Made by a program: the position numbers and the translations under genes
Shown: positions 1,390-17,521 of the stretch, piece by piece
Layout: the number at the start of each line of letters is the position of its first letter
How positions within the stretch are numbered: the stretch's first letter is position 1
Notes under the pieces: model-generated
Told to the model about the DNA's origin: nothing
The model's input: the letters and a program-made list of their open reading frames with translations, nothing else
The model's database searches: none
NCBI GenBank assembly: GCA_027596945.1
Contig: JADGJH010000432.1
Location: forward strand, 1-18,698
DNA length: 18,698 bases
DNA from: Physocladia obscura
Lineage: Eukaryota > Chytridiomycota > Chytridiomycetes > Chytridiales > Chytriomycetaceae
Direction of reading: 5' to 3'

Positions 1390-2250
1390 TCTTCAGAGAA
1401 ATAACCAATTTGGGTACAAACAACCATTCAGTGCTGGAGTTTTCCCAAATCATTGGCAGGCAACATGGAATATCAACCAAGGATGTCAGAAAAATCTACA
1501 AGCAGGTCAGAAAGCATCCAGATTGATTCCATGCCAACAGTTCATTTACAGATATACAAGAAGAAGATTTTGTTTTATTCTTACATGTGTGAGCCATGTC
1601 CCATCATCCAATGGTTTGTCCAGACTTCATTGAAATATCATAGAAAAATTTACAGCAATGCTGAGTGGACAGCTGCAAAGTGGTTTGAGAGTTTCCAGCA
1701 CCAAAAGAAGATTAGTGGCAAACACCTGAAAGCAATATCAGGGGCACATACCAATCTGACTACTCTAAGAGAGATCAAGGCATGGGTGGTTGAGTTTGAG
1801 CAGTGGATCATTACACAAGGCTACAGTTTAAAGAATGCATTCAATGTTAGATGCACATCAAATTACAAAACAACAACCTACAGTCAAAAAAAATTGCCAC
1901 TTCAGCCATTTAACATCCAAACAAGCTTCACAGAGAAAGGAGTCTGTTTGCCAGTTTCATTTCATTTGTACTAGCCAGTGGCAAGAGAGTAATGGATGTT
2001 TTATGTTATACTACTCAGATACAGCAACATGCTCTTACCTGAAGAAGAAACAAGATTGTGCTGAGATGACATCACACCAGCCTATTTCATATACAATGAA
2101 ACTGGCTACTTGACAGAAACCCAGTGCAAACATGTTTTGGAAGAGTTAAAAGCAGTTTGGTTGAATTTTCATCCTGGTCTTACACCTGTGTTGATTTGCA
2201 ATAATTTTGGTGCCAAAATTCCATGACCAGTGGCAACAGTCTGAAATAAT
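1390..2250 (+). pseudogene. decayed pogo/Tigger-like DDE transposase, N-terminal and catalytic core
   Basis: Protein-like segments continue across shifting frames on the plus strand. At about 1640-1800 there is a helix-turn-helix-like region with NAEWTAAKWFESF, a KHLKAISGAH segment, and EIKAWVVEFEQWI. It runs into NAFNV at about 1832, where pogo/CENP-B-type transposases carry the first catalytic Asp (NVDE-T). One base too many and point changes disrupt that Asp here. The next conserved blocks lie in other frames: LASGKRVMDV (about 1971), PAYFIYNETGYLTETQC (about 2078), and LTPVLICNNFGA (about 2184), where the second catalytic Asp should stand but Asn is seen. Stops include TAG at 1974 and TGA at 2224. 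Family placement rests on motif order recalled from DDE_1/CENP-B-like transposases. The element is clearly non-functional. Confidence 0.6.
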
Positions 2251-2517
2251 TTACTGCCAAATATAATTAGTCCATTAACTCTCTGTGTACAATAAATAAG
2301 AATTGAAATACAGAGCTTTCATTAAAGATTTGGAATTCAAGCTGAGATGCCCTAACAACTGAAAGAAGCCATCTACAGTGATCACCACACTGAAATAACA
2401 TTTAAAGATAATAAAGTACACAAGAAACATTATACACAATATTTCTGTATGTTTTTCAGCTGCCTTATTAAACAGCTTTTCTTTATCATTGAGTAACATA
2501 ACATATACACATAGTGA

Positions 2518-2691
2518 CTCTCTCAGGACTTGCTATGCATACATGAGACCTCAGTTTGTGTAGATAACAAGGGTAGCATTGTAATAATAAAAGGGATCAA
2601 TAAAGCTGTATTTTTGGCCAAGGGCACTATTGGTACAACAGCTCAAACTGCTGTAGTGGTACTCAGTGCAATGTGCCACAATGAGCTGTAA
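2518..2691 (+). pseudogene. second DDE transposase fragment
   Basis: A 57-codon open segment contains CIHETSVCVDNKGS, then KGINKAVFLAKGT, then TAVVVLSA. This matches the pattern around the first catalytic Asp of DDE_1 transposases: DET, a D-N-K-G turn, then a strand ending in VV-SA. The Asp is replaced by His (HET). Because the preceding remnant already has its own DET-region counterpart at about 1840, this is probably a piece of a second, related element rather than the next part of the same protein. No ends or terminal repeats were identified. Confidence 0.4.
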
Positions 2692-3279
2692 AGATAGAAC
2701 TGTTTTTATTACTCATTCACAATTGATGCTAGGAGACTCTGACAGCCTAGAAATAGCTCTGTATTAATTGTATGCACTTGTGACAACATGTTGTATGTTT
2801 CACAAGTGATGGATTGATAGGCAAGTTTTTCTAAGTGCTCTAACTTTGAAAATTTACATGGAGAAATTGATGCCATCTATCACCAAAAGTGACAAATAAA
2901 GCATTTGCCACTTAGCTAAAATATCAGGTGACCAATCAAGCCAAGGTGCGACCAAGACACTGGAAAATGAATAAAAACCATTGGTTTCTTTTCTGAAATA
3001 GCCACAAAAAATTAATAAAATTATATCATCTCTAAAACCCCTTGTTGCACACAGCAAATCAACACTTGGTGTTCACAAAACATTGGATGTCATCACCTTG
3101 TGTTTTGAGTTTGGAATCGAAGGTTTTTTTTACCTCCAAATACAACACACTTCCTACAGCCCATAGATTGTTTAATCTTCCGCAATATAAAAAACCAGAT
3201 TTGCCATCTTTATCAGGAATGGCACAGCTTTGCAATAGATTCCATGGACAAACTTGGTGAGGAGCTCATCTTGATTGCT
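2692..3279. other. transposon-derived stretch without a recognisable gene
   Basis: CpG-poor, with stops in every frame and no conserved blocks that I could recognise. It lies between two transposase remnants, so it is most likely decayed transposon sequence. Confidence 0.4.
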
Positions 3280-3837
3280 TTAGATGCTCTATTGTGTCTC
3301 ACATCCCAGATTATCTGTTCTTCTGTTAAGTGCATGGGAATCTTTCCTTTTAATGCAAAAAAATTTTGTTGATGCAGCAATGGCTAACATCAACACTCAA
3401 TCAACCAATGTTAAAACTGCACAAAATACTGCCAAAGCAATTCTGGATGTATTCAGCAACTTGATTATCACATCATCTGTCAAAAAATTACCAGTAAATG
3501 CAGATAAGTTAATGGCTGCAGATTAAATCTACACTTATCAAGGAGTTTGATTAGTGCAACAGAAGGCCATGGATGAAAAGAAAGCCAAGTCAGACGCAAT
3601 TACAAAAAAGAAGCAAATATGGGGTTAGTCAAAAATCAAAATGTGACAATGCACATTTAGTCAAAAAAGTTGCAAAACAGTGTGACAGAATATTAAACAA
3701 TGAACAATTCTCAGTTAAATACCACAAAGGAACAAATTTGCTTGGTTTGCAAAACATTCAGATTATGCCCTTTCTGCAAGATGCATAACAAGGATCAACT
3801 GAATGCACATAATCAAATTTGCAAAGGAAGTGGTTGA
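3280..3837 (+). pseudogene. C-terminal part of a decayed DDE transposase with a Cys/His finger
   Basis: A frame from about 3310 contains LLLSAWESFLLMQKNFVDAA, resembling the stretch after the catalytic core in pogo-like transposases (a Trp followed by an Ala-rich helix). After several stops and frame changes there is a Lys-rich linker (DEKKAKSDAITKKK, about 3574) and an open tail from 3697 to TGA at 3835-3837. The tail carries CLVCKTFRLCPFC and then HNQIC. Its last four ligands space as C-x2-C-x10-H-x3-C, a C2HC/UBZ4-like spacing, preceded by another CxxC. The finger itself is intact although the rest is broken. Its assignment to the same element as the 1390-2250 remnant is an inference from orientation and order. 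Confidence 0.45.
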
Positions 3838-4288: not shown

Positions 4289-5959
4289 TCACCTGATGTC
4301 AGCCCATTTACAGAGGCCACCTCCATTATGCTTTTCTATTGCTCCCATCACTACCACTACCCCCCTACTTTTACCACTGGCACCCCACTCCTCTGCTTCA
4401 GGTGGTCTTATGGAGCCATGATCAAGAAGGCTCTCTAGCTCTTCTGCCATGATTCCATCACCCCAAAGTCCAACTGTTTCTCTTATCAGTTGCTCAAAAA
4501 AACCTGGTGGGGCTGGGAAAAAAGCCACTGGATGAGTTAATTCAGTATTTGATTCATTTTCTGCTGTGTGAGTTGTGATGTTATTCTTGGCATTGGTATT
4601 TGTGCTGTTGCCAGTATCCATGTCAATTTCTATTGAACTGTTACTGTTGTTGCAAAGTTCCATGAGTGTGTGTGTGACTAGTGATTCTTTTGTTTGTTAT
4701 TTCTGCCTCTAAATCATTAACTGATAAAAAAAAGACATCTCCTGCTTTTTCAGTACTGTTTTCTTCCTGTGGATACTGTTTCATCCATTTGCTTGTGATA
4801 TTGGCCACACCTGGTAGTATTTTAGTTTTGTCAAGTTTGTGGTTTTCCCATATTTCAGTAGCTTCCTGTCTGACTTGATATGTACCACCATAGACATGAT
4901 CTGTGTTTGGTATCATTTTTCTTGGCACATTGGACATTTTTCCCTTTTTTTGGTTTGGTTTTTTGTGTTCTTTTTTATTATTTTGTTTCATGGACCAAAG
5001 TGCATGATACTGGTTTTTCCATTATTTTTTTTGACTCTATGATACCATTTTCTTTTTCCCAATCTATGGTTATTTCACATCTTACTTTCTATAATATTTT
5101 ATGAACTGCTTGGTTAAGTCATTTTCATGCATGTCGGGTAATTCCCCATCTCCTATCTGCATTATGCACATTACAATCTCTGATCACTTTGTCTATGACA
5201 TTGGGAATAATCTGATTTCCAGCAATATGTGTCTAATTAAAATAGCATGCTTCATCACCATATTTCCTGTCTTTTTCCCCTGAAGTCCAATTTCTGAGAA
5301 CTTCAGAATCATTGTCAAAAACAATATCCCATCCATCTTTTATATCGCTGTGTGCTACCACCTTCAATAATTCCCCAATGTTTTTTTTCTCTGGTTTTAA
5401 AGCTGCTCTCAATAGGTAATGGTTCTGGTTCCCCTTTCTTTTTCCTTTCTTTTTTGTCATTCTTTTTCCTTTCTTCTCTTCTTTCTTTGCTGCATCATAT
5501 GTTTTACCTCCTAGAATTTATGAATTCATGCATTATTGCAACTTGTTCATCATGGAAGGCTGGACATGTCCATAGATGCTCACTTGTTTCTTCTACATTT
5601 TGGTCACAGCAGCAACAGTTCCTATTTGAGTATAAGTTTGGTTTGTTCCTTGCATTTATTGTTTGTAGTGGTAACTTATTATGTAATTTATTTACATAGT
5701 GTTTGAAATTAGAGGTGTGTTTCTGTGATGTTTGCCAAGATGTGGATTTAATTCCCTGTTGGAGCATTGTGAATGTTAAGCCAAAATTTATTTTGTCTTG
5801 TAGTTTTGTAGTTTTTTGATGTGCTTGTGTGCTGGTTGTTTGATGTACTTAATGTGTTCATAAATTCTTTTAACTGTGTTGAGATTCTTTCTGAGCTGTC
5901 CTTCAATTATTTTTCCAGATATTTTGGGGCAAAATTTGATGTGTGACTGTGCTTCTGCT
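4289..5959 (-). pseudogene. LINE ORF2 C-terminal region with zinc-binding motif and long tail
   Basis: The block 5504-5767 holds LPLQTINARNKPNLYSNRN followed by CCCC...SEHLWTC (5564-5617). This is the zf-RVT-type finger (C-x2-C...H-x3-C) typical after RNase H in these LINEs. Near 5040-5090 the residues RCEITIDWEKENGI recall the Arg-Cys...Trp-Glu block that often ends such proteins. Open blocks continue past it: 5233-5460, a very Lys-rich stretch at 4900-4991, and 4289-4663, which has an Asn/Thr-rich part followed by FFPAPPGFFEQLI. Either ORF2 has an unusually long tail or another element begins here. Confidence 0.55.
5432..5498 (+). repeat. polypyrimidine tract
   Basis: Almost uninterrupted C/T on the plus strand. 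On the LINE coding strand this is a Lys/Arg/Glu-rich segment, so it is explained by coding composition. Confidence 0.5.
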
Positions 5960-6445
5960 TTTGTTGTGACTTCTTCTTCTTTATGACCTTCTTTTGCTAA
6001 AATATCAGCAGCCTCATTGCCTACAATGCCTGAGTGTGCTTTGACTTTAGTGAAAACTGCTGGAAGTTCTTCTCTATTTCTATCTATCTGAACTGTAATT
6101 GCAGTACCATATGCATATTTTTTTTCCCATAAGTCTCTTTGTTGCATTTGCCAGCTGTGTTTCTGTAGTTTGTTGTATTCTGTTATTATATTTGCATTAT
6201 CTATCATTATTTCTGCTTCCCCTCCAGCAATTAATGATTTGAGATGCAATTCTTTCAGCTTTAGTGGAGGAAGCCCATCCATTTGCTTTAAAGCTAATAT
6301 TTTTGCCTGTGTTTCTTCCACTGTTGATATGTATTCCTCCTGCCCTGCTAGGAGTGTCATCTTTGTTTTTTATGTATGAACCATCACTGTATATTTGATC
6401 TTTAGTGATTTTACTGCCATTATTTGTGCCAATTGCTACCAGCAT
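5960..6445 (-). pseudogene. LINE ORF2 RNase H domain, one frameshift
   Basis: All four acidic residues of type I RNase H are readable: Asp in IYSDGSYI (about 6385), Glu in SSTKAERIA (about 6256), Asp in MIDNANII (about 6201), and Asp in GNEAADILAKEG (about 6000). The His of KAHSGIVG just before the last one is also present. A frameshift lies near 6240, between the second and third. In elements of this class the domain removes the RNA template strand after cDNA synthesis. Confidence 0.75.
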
Positions 6446-7654: not shown

Positions 7655-9240
7655 TCATACAGATTGTGGTATTGTAGCTAAGTCCATATTGTAATGTTCA
7701 TTCCAATTTTCAAGTTTGCCTATTTGGCTATGTTCCAGGATTGAGTCTGGTGTGTCTCTTGACAGTGCTGCTTTTTGCTTATAAAGCTGCTTTATTTTGG
7801 CATACCATTTGTCAACTATTGTTGCTGGGACACCTGCAGTTTGCCATTTGTATCTGGCTTGTTGTAGTAATATCTGGTTTGTTAGAATTGCCACACTGTT
7901 GTGTGGTATTCTTTTATCTTGGAGAATGTCACATGTATCTTTTATTTGCTCTTCTATTTTTTCTGTAGCTAGTTTGCCATTTTTGGAGGCTGTGAAGTAG
8001 TTTCCTAGTAGCTGTTCACTATTGTTTCCAGTTTTAATTTTTATTTCTCTTTGTTTTTCAACATTCCAGTATAGTTTCCATTCTGGATCTTTCATGTTCA
8101 TTGGAAGAACTTTTGTTTTTGTTTTGTTTGCTTCAATTGTATTTCCTTCCATGAATTTTATTGTGAGACTTTTTTGTAGTTCTAGCTCTTTCCTACTTTT
8201 TGCAATAAGTGTGGTATCATCAACATATGCAAGCAATGCAACTTGCTCTGTGAGTATTTTATTTTCCCTATGTTTACCACTATAATTTGTTTTGTATTGC
8301 ATTTCAAAAATGTGTCCTGTAGTGTATTTGTCAATTGTGCACAGAAATGTATCCCAGAAGATTCTCCATTCAAGTGGAGCCAGTACTGATCACTGTACCA
8401 ATTTGTACAGCCTCTGTTGTACCAGCAGCTGTAAATACTTGGATTTTAATGCTTTTTTGTGTGTTGTATTTGAATGTTGAATATTTGTATTGGAGTTTGA
8501 TTCTTTTGTGGCTACGCATAACTTCTTCCACACTAACTGAGTCAAATGCTTTTTTGATGTTTAGAAGTGTTATGTATAATTATTCATTTTTCCTTTTACA
8601 GTTATCAATCACTGCTTGAACTGTGTGAGTTACTGGCTCTGTTGACTTGCCTTTTAGTACAGACATATTTTTTTCCTTTGAGTATATTATGATGTGAAAC
8701 GTAAACTTCCTTTATAAATGTTTCAGTGAAAAAACTGTTGTTTATTGAATAAAGACTATTGCTTTTATAAACTTTCCAATTATGAAACAAACTTGAAACC
8801 AAAACACTTCCGTTACAAATCCCATTAGCCACTTTGAACCTTCTGTTGTTTCATCCCTGCCTTCAGTTTCACAACATATTATGTATTTGGAGTGTTGGAG
8901 ACAATCTTAAATTGTATATCATTTCTATTAGCTTGTATCCTGTTTCAAGCAGAGATATTGGTCTTGTGTTGTTGTATTCTGCTGCTCAGTCTTCACTCTT
9001 TGGTATTGGGTTTATGTTACCCATTAAACATTTTTCAGGTGCATAAGCATGGTCCATGCAAAGCTGAATAGCCATTGCTAGAATTTTTTTTACATTTTTT
9101 GTTGATTTTAGTATTAGTTCTCTGGAAATGTCACTAGGACCTGGGGCCCTATTTGCTCCCATTTTTGTAATTGCCTCCATGATTGTGTCAGCTGTAACTT
9201 TGTTTTCCATGTTGGAGTAGATGGTTGGGTTAATTTAAGC
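7655..9240 (-). pseudogene. LINE ORF2 reverse transcriptase domain
   Basis: Motifs occur in order on the minus strand. NRAPGPSDISRELI (about 9150), INPIPKSED and NTRPISLLETGYKLIEMIYN (9000-8920) are the finger motifs. LKGKSTEPV and NIKKAFDSVS (motif A, about 8560) follow, with Asn in place of the catalytic Asp. LAPLEWRIFWDTF (motif B side) and AYVDDTTLI (motif C, YVDD at 8216-8227) are present. The thumb runs to about 7655 with KIKQLYKQKAALSRDTPDSI. Breaks: four TGA codons between 8851 and 8988, frame changes near 8400-8300, and an internal 157-base segment at 8676-8832. The YVDD is intact but the copy is dead. Confidence 0.8.
8676..8832 (-). other. 157-base segment with direct-repeat edges and GT-AG ends inside the RT
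   Basis: On the plus strand ctttga occurs at 8676-8681 and again at 8832-8837, bounding a segment unlike the surrounding RT. On the minus strand it begins GTGGCT and ends CAAAG. Reading from RRFK directly to EKNMSVLKGKSTEP across it rejoins two frames that both carry RT motifs. It has two CpGs in a region almost without them. It could be a short insertion with a 6-base target duplication, an introner-like intron, or coincidence. No terminal inverted repeats were seen, and the donor GTGGCT is weak. Confidence 0.4.
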
Positions 9241-13141: not shown

Positions 13142-13262
13142 TCAACTATTGGAAGTGTTTTCACATTCACATTTTTCCGCTACTTGTAATTCTTGACACT
13201 GGGAAAAATTTGCTTTATTTTAATCATTACAAAATGATTTTTTTCCTGAAGGCCACTGATAT
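13142..13262. other. 3' flank of the MyTH4-RhoGAP-like gene and 5' edge of the LINE
   Basis: The 121 bases contain the poly(A) signal of the upstream gene and then sequence that runs into the LINE ORF1. On the minus strand a pyrimidine-rich run ending in cag (about 13201) resembles a splice acceptor, but nothing else supports an intron. Confidence 0.4.
13214..13219 (-). terminator. AATAAA polyadenylation signal of the pseudo-GAP gene
   Basis: AATAAA lies 44 bases after the TGA at 13263-13265. The sequence aataaagcaa is shared with the 3' end of the upstream paralog (14747-14756). Confidence 0.5.
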
Positions 13263-14641
13263 TCAGCCCTGAGAACAAAATTGCATCAAAGCAAGAAGAA
13301 AAGCTTGTTCCATGCTTATATTATCAGTAGGTGTATTGATTTCATCAATTGGACTTCGCAAAAAAGTTGATGCCAGAACTGTTGCAATACTTTCACAAGT
13401 GTGCTTTTCTTCTTTCCCAAGAATATTTAAGAATTTTCCCATATATAGCAATACTTTTTTGTTGATGTCTGGCATTGAGCTCAACAAAGATTCGAAAGAA
13501 TCAACGCTTAAATCAGAGCAAGCAAATTGACGACCAATTTCTAGGCAGTTTTCATACAAATTTACTGGAACGAGAGGCTCAGCAAGTTCGTGAAACCAAA
13601 GCTTCAAAAGAGCTGCTGGAACATGAGGACTTGTAATTGTTCCCATGTCATATTTCCCTCTTTCCAGCCTTTCTCGTAATACTGAAGTTTAAAAAAATTA
13701 AAGCTTGGCAAGAGAAAACAAATCTAGATAACAAACCTTTAATTAAATCTGAGTCATCAGGAACACCAAAAATATCATCTGTCTCCGATCCATTCAGTCT
13801 AATAATCGCATCAGACAAAAATAACAAAATTCTTGGCATGGCAAGCCTTCGACCTGTTCCATCCTTTGGATTTTTTCGAGTCTGGCTCGTCATTAAATCC
13901 TGTAAAGTTTCCCCAAACAGCGACGTTCGAAACGGCGCCTCCTGAGCCCGTTCAATTTCTGAAATAGTTGGAGTCTTGTACCTGATCCCGCTGCTACAAA
14001 TTGAAGCAAGCTTTTTAAAGCAAAACTTTGCGATTCGGGCAATAGCTTCATTTTCGCGGGATAGTATTACTGCTGATGTATTTATGCTGTCGGTGTCTTC
14101 TGTTACAGTTATGCACCAAGTGGGGATGTCGCTCTCTGGCCACATGTTTGCAGGGACACCATCAAAGTGATGTTGAGCAAAATCTTTGACAACCGATTCA
14201 CAGTCTTTTGATGGCGGAAATACAGTGGTTAGAACACTGAAAAGAAGCCATCCACGAAACACCGACTCGCTGATCAAAGTAATCAACAAAAACAGAAAAT
14301 ACAAATAAGCCCTATCGTACTCACGATGATTTATTTCGAGAAACCTGATTCAATACTTGCATATAGATTTCGCTGCGCAAAGATCTAAATGTCACACCAA
14401 TATTTAGCAGTATTTGCACTTCCTTTATCGATCCATGATACGGCGGGCCATTAGAAACATCCGCCATGATATGATTTATTAGTTCAAAGCTTCGAACGGC
14501 CTCTTTATGAAGATGCCGTGGAACGTTTTCGAGTAATGGAGATTGCAATTGGTTCTGATCGAGGTTTTACTGATTATGACTGATGGTTACTGTGTCTCTT
14601 ACCCTGAATTTAAAGGTAGTGAAGTCACCAGTCAAGGTCAT
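13263..14641 (-). CDS. truncated MyTH4-RhoGAP paralog lacking the arginine finger (probable pseudo-GAP)
   Basis: Exons on the minus strand: 14641-14603, 14554-14325, 14269-13737 and 13681-13263. Introns are 48, 55 and 55 bases, all GT-AG, and the total of 1,221 bases gives 406 residues. Residues 1-13 (MTLTGDFTTFKFR) are unlike the paralog. Residues 14 to about 230 are most of a MyTH4 domain (LRSEIYMQVLNQ, SESVFRGWLL), and the rest is a RhoGAP fold (LLKLWFHELAEPL, EQAFLLAL). The arginine-finger motif G-I-F-R-V-P-G-D of the parent reads DIFGVPDD here (Gly258). The Arg four residues after the conserved Lys294 is His298, and the conserved Asn is Thr373 (ASTFLR). These correspond by motif to p50RhoGAP R85, R126 and N194. 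Frames and splice sites are intact, so it is probably expressed as a GTPase-binding or scaffolding protein without GAP activity (inference). It also has about 13 extra residues near position 150. It arose by tandem duplication of the gene at 14757-17521. I chose the start because the ATG exon splices in phase with intact consensus sites. Confidence 0.75.
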
Positions 14642-14756
14642 GCTCAGAGTTGATGATCTCTTCGAATTTTTTTTTTTCAAATACCCAATTTAAAAAAAGA
14701 AAAAGCAAACGAAAACAAATTCCTTTCCCACCCCAAGCAATGCAACTTGCTTTATT
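14642..14756 (-). promoter_or_regulatory. 115-base intergenic space: terminator of the upstream gene and promoter of the pseudo-GAP
   Basis: It contains the poly(A) signal at 14751-14756 and a run of about eleven T at 14667-14677 (A on the coding strand). Poly(dA:dT) tracts are common in fungal promoters. No TATA or other element can be called with confidence. Such a short gap suggests that the duplicate's promoter lies within or very near the parent's 3' end. Confidence 0.35.
14751..14756 (-). terminator. AATAAA polyadenylation signal of the WW-MyTH4-RhoGAP gene
   Basis: AATAAA starts directly after the TAA stop codon (14757-14759). Confidence 0.5.
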
Positions 14757-17521
14757 TTATGGAGTCGGAACAGACGGAGGTGAGTGCGTTAGCAATACAC
14801 GAATGAAAGCTTGTTCGAAATTTGTGTTTTCGAAAATCACAACTGGGTCGTCACTTGGGCATCGCAAAAAATTTGGAGCAAACACTAATGCAATATTTGC
14901 ATGCGTCATTCTTGTGAAACTTTGGTTTTGTGGGTCAGCCACAACTTTCAAAAAATTGAGCATATATAAAGCTACTCTGCGGTTGATATCTGGCATCTCT
15001 CCAATAAGTTCATACGCCAAAGCCCCAACGTCTTCTTCGGATTCTGGAATCGTAGCCTCACGCCCAATATCGATGCAATCGTCATATAAATCAGCCGGAA
15101 TTAAAGGCTCCGCAAGTTCTCTCAGCCAAAGCTTCAACAGAGAAGAGGCAACATGTGGATCGCTAATTCCGGTAACATCGTACTTTCCTCGTTCCAATCT
15201 AATACGTAGTTCTGTTGAATGAAGTCAATTAAAATTTTGCTAGAAAATAATTAAACCTCACCGTTAACCATGTCAATGTCTCCGGGTACGCGAAAAATAC
15301 CCTCTGTTTTGCATCCATTCAGAGTCAAAATGGCGTCAGTCAAAAACAGAAGAATTCTTGGAAGAGCCAATTTGCGCCCAGCACTGTCTTTTGGATTTTC
15401 CTTCGCCTGTACAGCCATGACATCCTCTAAAGTTTCGCCAAACAGCGATGCCCTAAATGGAGCTTCTTGTGCGCGTTCAATTTCTTGAATCATCGGAGTT
15501 TTTCCACGCGGCCCACTGCGACAAATTCTAATAAGTTTCTTGTTGCAATATTTTGCCAGTGCAGCGATCGCTTCATTTTCTCTAGAGTTCGTCTTTGTGG
15601 CCCAGTTTGGTAAAGAAATCGTTCCCCATGAGCCAGCGGGAACTCCTTCGTAATGCTCCAGAGTAAATGCTTTCACATACTCTTCCAAATCCTTCGAAGG
15701 CGGAAAAACAATAGTCACGACACAGAGCAACAACCACCCTCGAAATACGGATTCGCTGAAAAAATTCATTTATTGAATGAATATTTTATGCAAAAGTCAA
15801 TTTTAACACTTACGGTAGAGTATTTCCTCGAACTTGTTTCATAATTTGAACATAAATCTCGTCTCGTAAAAATTTCGACGTAACGCCCATATTTAGCAGA
15901 CTTTGGACTTCTCTAATCGACCCAGTGTATGGTGGACCTTGCGAAACATCGGACATTATATGTTTGATCAACCTGAAACTCTTTATTGCATCTTTGTGGA
16001 GGTGTTTTGGTAGATTTTCCAATAAAGGTCCGCGCAGAGTATCCTAGATTTCAAATCATAATCAGAACCATCAATGAGACATACAGCTTACTTTTTGGTA
16101 CATCAGTGCTTCTTCAACAGAAACAGTGTGCTTAATAAAGAGTCCACGTTTCATTTCAGTGAAGTGATCTTTGGCATAACCATCAATCTTAAATTTATTG
16201 ATATGAGCCGTATCAGGGAGAACGAAACTTGACATAATTAAATTAATACTCTGTTGCAAAGTAAATGACATAGATAGCCTTACTCTGGTTTCACTTTTGG
16301 AAGTGAAGCTAAGTTTTGGTTGTAGGGTACTTCGACAATTCTCCGCGGTGGCCTGTTGCTTCTCGTTTCACTTGGAGTTATTGGCGACATAGGATGCTGT
16401 TGAAGTTGTGGAGATGGTTCTTGTTGTTTCAGTTCTCCTGACGAATCTCTTGGAATAAGCATGGAAGGAGGCATTAAAGCAATTGAGCTACTGGTAGAAG
16501 CTCGGGCAGTGTTGGACGCATTTGTGACCGATGCCGCAGCACTGCTGCTGCCACCAGAGACCATCCCGAGATGTTCAAAACGAGACCGATTGCTACTTCC
16601 ACTATTGTAGTTATTGTTATTGTTGATGTTGTTGTTGTTGTTGAAACTATTCAAACTCGGAGCACGATCTCTAAGAGGAGAAGGAGCGAGGGGAGGCTGC
16701 TGCTGCTGCGGAATGAATTGTGCCTGTGACTGAACAAAAGGCTGTTGCTGTACAAGCTGAGCTTCACCGCTTATTTGAGAGCGTGCGATTGAACCATCAC
16801 TTTCGTCTTCCGATGAATGCGAAGAACCAAGCATTGTTGAACTCATAGTAGACATGCGTTTAAGAGCCGAAGTCATCTGTTTTCCCACAGCGGTGCTCTA
16901 TGGGTAATTGTTTAATCAACACTTCCAATTTGGAGTGAAATAATCAATTACTGACAACGAATCTCATCATACCTGTAAAGACCGCAACTGAATATTTCCA
17001 CAATGAAAAGATTCAATCAAGTGGATCAACACAGCAAATACTGGAGGTGTTTCATAGGTGCTTACCGGTATCACAACGCCTTCCAGCGGACGTCTCCACT
17101 CAGTCTGACCAGTGCCCGTATTGTAATAATAAGGCTGTATGGAATGCACAGGATCAACACCAAAGAAATGCTGTCAGTGGACTATTAATGATCAGGCAAA
17201 GGAAACTCACCAGGTTTCTCGCATCATCGTGCAACTCCCACCATTCGTCATCAGCACCTTCTGAATTGCGCATATGCCTGTAAGCATTAGTAATATCGAA
17301 TGCAGGGAACGAAAAAAAGGCGGGTAGTGTGGTTAGTTAGGGTCAGCAGAGTATATCGCTGCCAAACAAACGGTGGCTGGAAGTAACGCTCACACAATGG
17401 CTTCGATTGGCCGGTCCCACTGGAAACCGCCGGTTGCGATATTGAGGAAAAAAGTTGTTCCGGTGCTAGGATCAACGACCTCGCGGAACTCTGGCATGGT
17501 GCTCGGCAGAGGTTGCGACAT
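14757..17521 (-). CDS. ARHGAP39-like: WW-WW-MyTH4-RhoGAP protein, ARHGAP39/Vilse (CrossGAP) type
   Basis: Exons on the minus strand: 17521-17394, 17277-17211, 17134-17066, 16987-16973 (microexon), 16897-16295, 16250-16092, 16043-15814, 15755-15262 and 15211-14757. They sum to 2,220 bases, 739 residues. WW1 (about 10-40) has Phe12 at the first Trp position, then Trp35 and Pro38. WW2 (about 52-84) has WWEL, PYYYN, Trp78 and Pro81. Residues 94-294 are a Ser/Gln/Asn-rich linker. MyTH4 (about 300-500) shows GPLLENLPKHL, LRDEIYVQIMKQ, ESVFRGWLLL and GKTPMIQEIE. RhoGAP (about 505-730) shows EGIFRVPGD (arginine finger Arg579), LLKLWLRELAEPL (Lys615, Arg619) and VFAPNFLR (Asn702). In animals this family accelerates GTP hydrolysis on Rac/Cdc42, while WW domains bind proline motifs (Robo for Vilse) and MyTH4 domains bind microtubules or partners. 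A similar cytoskeletal role is inferred. The donor of the fifth intron is ambiguous: 16294, giving a 44-base intron, or 16283, giving 35 bases with the acceptor two bases later. Confidence 0.85.
16600..16760 (-). repeat. Asn and Gln codon repeats in the linker
   Basis: AAC/AAT repeats (about 16600-16643) encode Asn runs, and CAG repeats (16697-16711, 16742-16752) encode Gln runs. They form a low-complexity, probably disordered linker that may vary in length between strains. Confidence 0.8.
16973..16987 (-). other. probable 15-base microexon (LRSLQ)
   Basis: Between the WW2 exon and the linker exon, the minus-strand string attcag / 15 bases / gtatga gives consensus acceptor and donor sites in phase 0. 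It would add LRSLQ after VVIP, which recalls the IPLAKLQ after WW2 in animal ARHGAP39. Skipping it also keeps the frame, so alternative splicing is possible. Confidence 0.5.

Follow-up and report, generated by a model that had tools for sequence, protein, structure and literature searches.

A diverged tandem paralogue of an ARHGAP39/Vilse-type RhoGAP gene in the chytrid Physocladia obscura: sequence support for a pseudo-GAP under purifying selection

The window analyzed in this study is a whole contig (JADGJH010000432.1, 18,698 nucleotides) of the 21.8-Mb genome assembly of Physocladia obscura. It contains two genes, which we designate as gene A and gene B, in tandem on the minus strand; all positions given below for the two genes and their parts refer to that strand. 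Gene A (14757..17521) has eight exons and codes for a 730-aa protein of the ARHGAP39/Vilse type, in which Pfam recognizes WW, MyTH4, and RhoGAP domains. Its exon 4 (16897–16284) encodes a long Gln/Asn/Ser-rich linker between the WW and MyTH4 domains, and this linker is probably disordered. Gene B (13263..14641) is a pseudo-RhoGAP paralogue with four exons and 406 aa, as judged from the splice model and its translation. The A stop codon is separated from the B start codon by a spacer of 115 bp (14642..14756), which contains the AATAAA of A and a T-rich stretch and is the sole room for a promoter between the two genes.

The splice model of B agreed exactly with the initial annotation in its four exons, three introns, and 406 codons as well as in coordinates and strand. 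The introns are 48, 55, and 55 nt long, and all three have GT–AG borders. Exon 1 (14603..14641) comprises 13 codons with the proposed ATG and is putatively coding; it is followed by the 48-nt intron 1 (14555..14602), which contains TCATAATCAG. Homology to A starts with exon 2 (14325..14554), the phase-0 acceptor of which matches that of A exon 6. Exon 3 (13737..14269) encodes the remaining MyTH4 domain, the linker, and the start of the RhoGAP domain, where B has DDIFGVPDD in place of EGIFRVPGD of A, and the remaining RhoGAP domain is encoded by exon 4 (13263..13681). The Pfam scores for B (70.8 bits for MyTH4; 72.3 bits for RhoGAP, PF00620, over a curated cut-off of 24.5) do not reflect chance. 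The WW domain is absent from B's own exons according to Pfam and would belong to B only if B were spliced to exons of A. In addition, within 14269–13263, B has a 13-codon in-frame insertion in the MyTH4–linker region (exon 3) and a 5-codon deletion ahead of the N391 helix, both of which are absent from A and 12 aligned relatives, and its RhoGAP part has smaller in-frame gaps. An AATAAA (13214..13219) lies 43 nt past the B stop codon and is followed by GCAA as in A, which is suggestive only (p = 0.07).

Comparison of the two genes identifies B as a diverged tandem paralogue of the MyTH4–RhoGAP half of A. The homologous stretch starts where A exon 6 and B exon 2 have their phase-0 splice acceptors, and the following two introns are at matching places. 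B was born by local DNA duplication of this half of A with the introns retained. No counterpart of B exon 1 was detectable in the stretch of A compared (p = 0.24), a search of the region ahead of B exon 2 revealed no remnant of A exon 5 (p = 0.94), and the homologous introns of A and B had no alignable similarity (p = 0.94 and 0.06). Among the matches listed, the closest were MyTH4–RhoGAP proteins, mostly with a WW domain, from Rhizoclosmatium, Obelidium, Siphonaria, and Chytriomyces. The relatives of protein A and the phylogenetic tree place the genes among those of chytrids, and sequence comparison assigns A and B to the ARHGAP39/Vilse type in Chytridiales fungi; B itself has the order MyTH4 then RhoGAP and is nearest to this family by sequence.

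A, B, and 27 of the 123 relatives compared were placed in one tree (29 sequences), which united A and B with the four sister genera in a group with support of 100/100. B joined A with moderate support (SH-aLRT 84.6, bootstrap 80). Under both LG+G4+F and LG+C20+F+G4, all six constrained trees passed the AU test, and the duplication may therefore predate or postdate the split from the sister genera. The branches leading from the A–B node in the best tree measured 0.04 for A and 0.90 for B, which assigns most replacements to the B branch, an excess that depends on the moderately supported grouping of B with A. No orthologue of B was seen: the protein matches to B (five) and to B residues 225–406 (seven) all keep the finger arginine. 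The search requires shared five-residue words, and this absence is thus not proof.

The residues of the RhoGAP domain are numbered here as in full-length p50RhoGAP, counted on the p50 chain, so that the functional Asn194 corresponds to N391. Among the 123 relatives compared, which are part of the family (the best 120 of 387 proteins in the relative search), the arginine finger R282 is Arg in all 123; R323, N391, and P398 are each unchanged in 122, the remaining row being a gap; and the Lys of K319 is present in 121, one of the other two rows being a gap and the other reading Q. Gene A retains the equivalents of all five. In B, the finger is replaced by G, exon 4 carries R323H, N391S, P398S, and N399T, and only K319 is kept. 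The V394 site is T in B, L in A, and M or L in nearly all relatives, and is thus itself not invariant. The initial annotation had noted the loss of the catalytic arginine, the retention of the conserved Lys, which is that of the LLK motif (K319), and the motifs DDIFGVPDD, LWFHEL, and ASTFLR in B in place of EGIFRVPGD, LWLREL, and APNFLR in A; all of these were borne out. Its catalytic asparagine was misassigned, because the Asn of the APN motif is N399 and not the functional residue. The latter lies within MTHANIALVF, eight residues before the APN Asn, and it is also lost in B. Sequencing error had been considered as an alternative, but the R-to-G (CGC to GGT) and R-to-H (AGA to CAC) replacements need two and three base changes, respectively, and cannot be accounted for by single miscalls. 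The N-to-S, P-to-S, and N-to-T replacements need one base change each. B deviates at 31 of 103 near-invariant sites, the next highest value among the 28 rows being 9 of 106; these deviations amount to 8 of 40 sites in the MyTH4 domain and linker and 23 of 63 in the RhoGAP domain. With a RhoGAP profile match and no finger arginine, B falls into the class of finger-less (pseudo) RhoGAPs, and its GAP activity has presumably been lost.

We compared A and B over 379 shared codons, in which the proteins are 55% identical. Nucleotide identity at codon positions 1, 2, and 3 is 0.65, 0.75, and 0.42, respectively, and 30 of 83 fourfold sites (36%) are identical. These low values at third positions and fourfold sites show that silent sites are saturated. 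The GY94 model gave a dN of 0.34 and an omega of 0.02 at its optimum; omega was 0.08 at a dS of 4.4, with a fit 1.2 log units lower, and 0.14 at a dS of 2.4, with a fit 6 log units lower. An omega of 1 fitted worse by 96 log units. The dN/dS estimates were 0.37/3.1 with NG86 and 0.35/1.6 with LWL85. When codons were restricted to those in which the residue of A is shared with at least three of the four sister genera (286 of 379), B differed at the second position of 57 codons and at the third position of 156 (p = 8e-18), and the RhoGAP part, with 146 such codons, had 37 second- and 77 third-position differences (p = 2e-6). Neutral drift simulated from A down to a third-position identity of 45% produced at least nine stop codons in each of 200 runs; the 406 codons of B are free of stops, frameshifts, and broken splice sites. 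B thus shows neither the broken frame or junctions nor the even change across codon positions that mark a pseudogene.

Decay of B was rejected, as its frames and GT–AG junctions are intact and its second positions are far better kept than its saturated third positions, with a third copy, situated at another place in the genome, serving as the control. This copy (the C53 copy; L023 2964–4124, G000:C53:3463–4623) corresponds to the 3′ half of A with introns included, and 1075 of its 1151 aligned bases (93.4%) are identical to those of A. It has four frame-breaking deletions, two 3-base deletions, and four new stop codons, and its changes are spread over codon positions 1, 2, and 3 in numbers of 21, 17, and 24, along with 14 in 200 noncoding bases. 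The pattern identifies the C53 copy as a truly decaying one. Its match to A stops at an A-rich tract 23 bp ahead of the B start codon. Taken together, the codon analyses make B a well-supported candidate for a pseudo-GAP under purifying selection. The claim of the initial annotation that selection rather than decay has shaped B stood up to the dN/dS estimates, the positional bias, and the simulations alike. As no B orthologue was seen, this selection is deduced from a single gene pair with saturated synonymous sites.

Constraint differs between the two halves of B. The B branch is 0.65 long for the MyTH4 domain and linker and 1.33 for the RhoGAP domain, or 0.053 and 0.143, respectively, when scaled to the rest of the tree. 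Hydrophobic columns are preserved in 42 of 42 cases in MyTH4 and in 49 of 57 in RhoGAP. From the hydrophobic columns and the branch pattern, both folds are probably retained, with the RhoGAP half being looser; erosion of this half is conceivable in view of its faster change and of the 8 of 57 hydrophobic positions lost there. Because MyTH4 is the better conserved half, we consider a MyTH4-led role without catalysis, as a scaffold or decoy, the most likely function of B, with a probability of about 0.6. In this view, B is a protein-coding gene under purifying selection, the product of which probably keeps its RhoGAP fold and has lost the GAP chemistry and most of the residues for canonical contacts with Rho GTPases. 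Its MyTH4 domain could rival A for the MyTH4 partners of A or dock partners of its own, and the dead RhoGAP module could serve as a folded binding surface, so that B would act without catalysis in parallel with other RhoGAP pseudoenzymes. We infer from the sequence that B is expressed, has no GAP activity, has lost GTPase binding, and acts as a scaffold or decoy.

The initial annotation had raised the possibility that B competes with, or regulates, A at a shared GTPase. Competition would occur if B bound the GTP form of the Rho target of A without hydrolysis and shielded the target from A. Loss of the finger alone permits binding, as R85A p50RhoGAP is reported to still make transition-state-analogue complexes with RhoA (PMC5575484), and a review states that finger mutants bind persistently and sequester the target and that OCRL1, which lacks the finger, binds GTP-Rac1 without stimulation of hydrolysis (PMC8305018). 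The retention of K319 in B fits with such binding. However, K319 is the only one left of the five binding determinants given in that review, with R323, N391, the V394 side chain, and P398 gone (PMC8305018), and the E, G, and G flanking the finger are also lost. According to the same source, reversing the charge of K319 and R323 most likely prevents association, and p85, with losses comparable to those of B, has no detectable GAP activity (PMC8305018). N391 (as N194) is described as contacting Tyr34 of RhoA (PMC12240320). The RhoGAP domain is moreover the faster-evolving half of B, MyTH4 being more constrained. The proposed competition is thus weakened: its premise about the finger holds, but the contacts lost besides the finger lead us to rate a GTPase trap below the scaffold or decoy role and to regard it as unlikely. 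Another reading makes B an untranscribed relic that was useful until recently. The faster change and hydrophobic losses of its RhoGAP domain, the lack of orthologues in the word-based protein search, and the plain decay of the C53 copy are in line with such a fate, which we nevertheless consider quite improbable given 406 codons without a stop, frameshift, or broken splice site despite saturated third positions.

Two features count against B as a standalone gene. It lies only 115 bp from A, and its MyTH4 fold lacks approximately 33–39 N-terminal residues when aligned to solved structures. In P0001, a relative with a structure model (mean pLDDT 76.4), this fold begins at residues 256–262 according to all nine MyTH4–FERM structures among the 50 matches listed, and the start of B corresponds to residue 295; a standalone B would thus lack the first 33–39 MyTH4 residues, which are encoded in A by exon 5. 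B could instead be promoterless, with A exons 1–5 (WW and the MyTH4 start) being spliced to either A exons 6–8 or B exons 2–4. The shared phase-0 acceptors would allow an in-frame junction of A exon 5 with B exon 2, and the exon lengths predict active and dead isoforms of 730 and 731 aa, respectively. Such splicing requires transcription to run past the 3′ end of A and an intron of 1.5 kb to be removed, whereas the other introns of A and B are 48–168 nt long, and B has an ATG exon of its own with a GT–AG intron. The block of P0001 containing the first MyTH4 residues has a pLDDT of only 49–78, and the MyTH4 start may accordingly be dispensable. On balance, this arrangement seems doubtful to us. 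The 48-nt A intron 5 (16044..16091) contains CTGATTATGA, which is complementary to TCATAATCAG of B intron 1, although the statistics of this 10-mer are weak (p = 0.008 with a post hoc choice). The duplex of these two introns is the best of 15 intron pairs at −21.9 kcal/mol, an energy that is reached by 4.6% of shuffles (p = 0.046) for a pair chosen after the fact and is suggestive only; the region has 13 inverted pairs of 12–22 nt. That A and B form one gene with two 3′ ends, between which a splice choice, perhaps guided by intron pairing, selects the active or the dead version, is an improbable idea; if it is true, splice choice would replace an off-switch for Rho by a decoy that matches it in size and address.

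B has parallels among known RhoGAP homologues. ARHGAP39/Vilse/CrossGAP/Porf-2 proteins have MyTH4 followed by RhoGAP, as does B, which is 40–54% identical to 12 aligned fungal relatives. Unlike them, B encodes no WW domain in exons of its own and lacks the finger arginine, which is kept by all 123 relatives compared (part of the family). The partner domains of p85 of PI3-kinase differ from those of B. Like B, the p85 BH domain has a RhoGAP fold without contacts of the R323, N391, V394, and P398 type, and it is reported to lack the surroundings of the finger as well and to show no detectable GAP activity (PMC8305018); it keeps the finger arginine (PMC2386819), whereas B does not. The same review lists ARHGAP36, CNTD1, DEP1, DEP2, FAM13B, INPP5P, and OCRL1 (in its spellings) as RhoGAP homologues that, like B, have no finger and are reported to be inactive (PMC8305018), and ARHGAP36 is likewise described as finger-less and inactive elsewhere (PMC8128262). 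Those seven are animal proteins with other partner domains, whereas B is fungal. None of them is known to lie in tandem with the active gene from which it was copied. Class III plant formins have RhoGAP-like domains in which the finger Arg is replaced and the fold is kept, and these are presumed inactive; their conserved Lys is replaced too (PMC2386819), in contrast to that of B. Dead RhoGAPs without the finger are thus already known from animals and plants, and B is a further example; a finger-less MyTH4–RhoGAP protein was not reported in the titles and abstract beginnings covered by our literature search. Here, the active gene, its dead-looking twin under selection, and a third copy in decay occur together in one small fungal genome, offering a natural comparison of pseudoenzyme birth and pseudogene death. 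The locus also provides a test of whether a RhoGAP domain deprived of catalysis and GTPase contacts survives via its partner domain, MyTH4.

The remainder of the window contains remnants resembling mobile elements. From approximately 5.8 to 13.1 kb, the minus strand has broken retrotransposon-like open reading frames, with a weak reverse transcriptase match at 7655–8386 (24.8 bits, under the cut-off of 29.6) and an RNase H match at 5791–6369 (26.5 bits, just above the cut-off). The last long open reading frame of this stretch starts approximately 120 bp downstream of B and has no convincing Pfam match. On the plus strand, positions 1405–3369 hold pieces resembling a DDE-type DNA transposon, with HTH_63 and DDE_1 matches that are both under their cut-offs.
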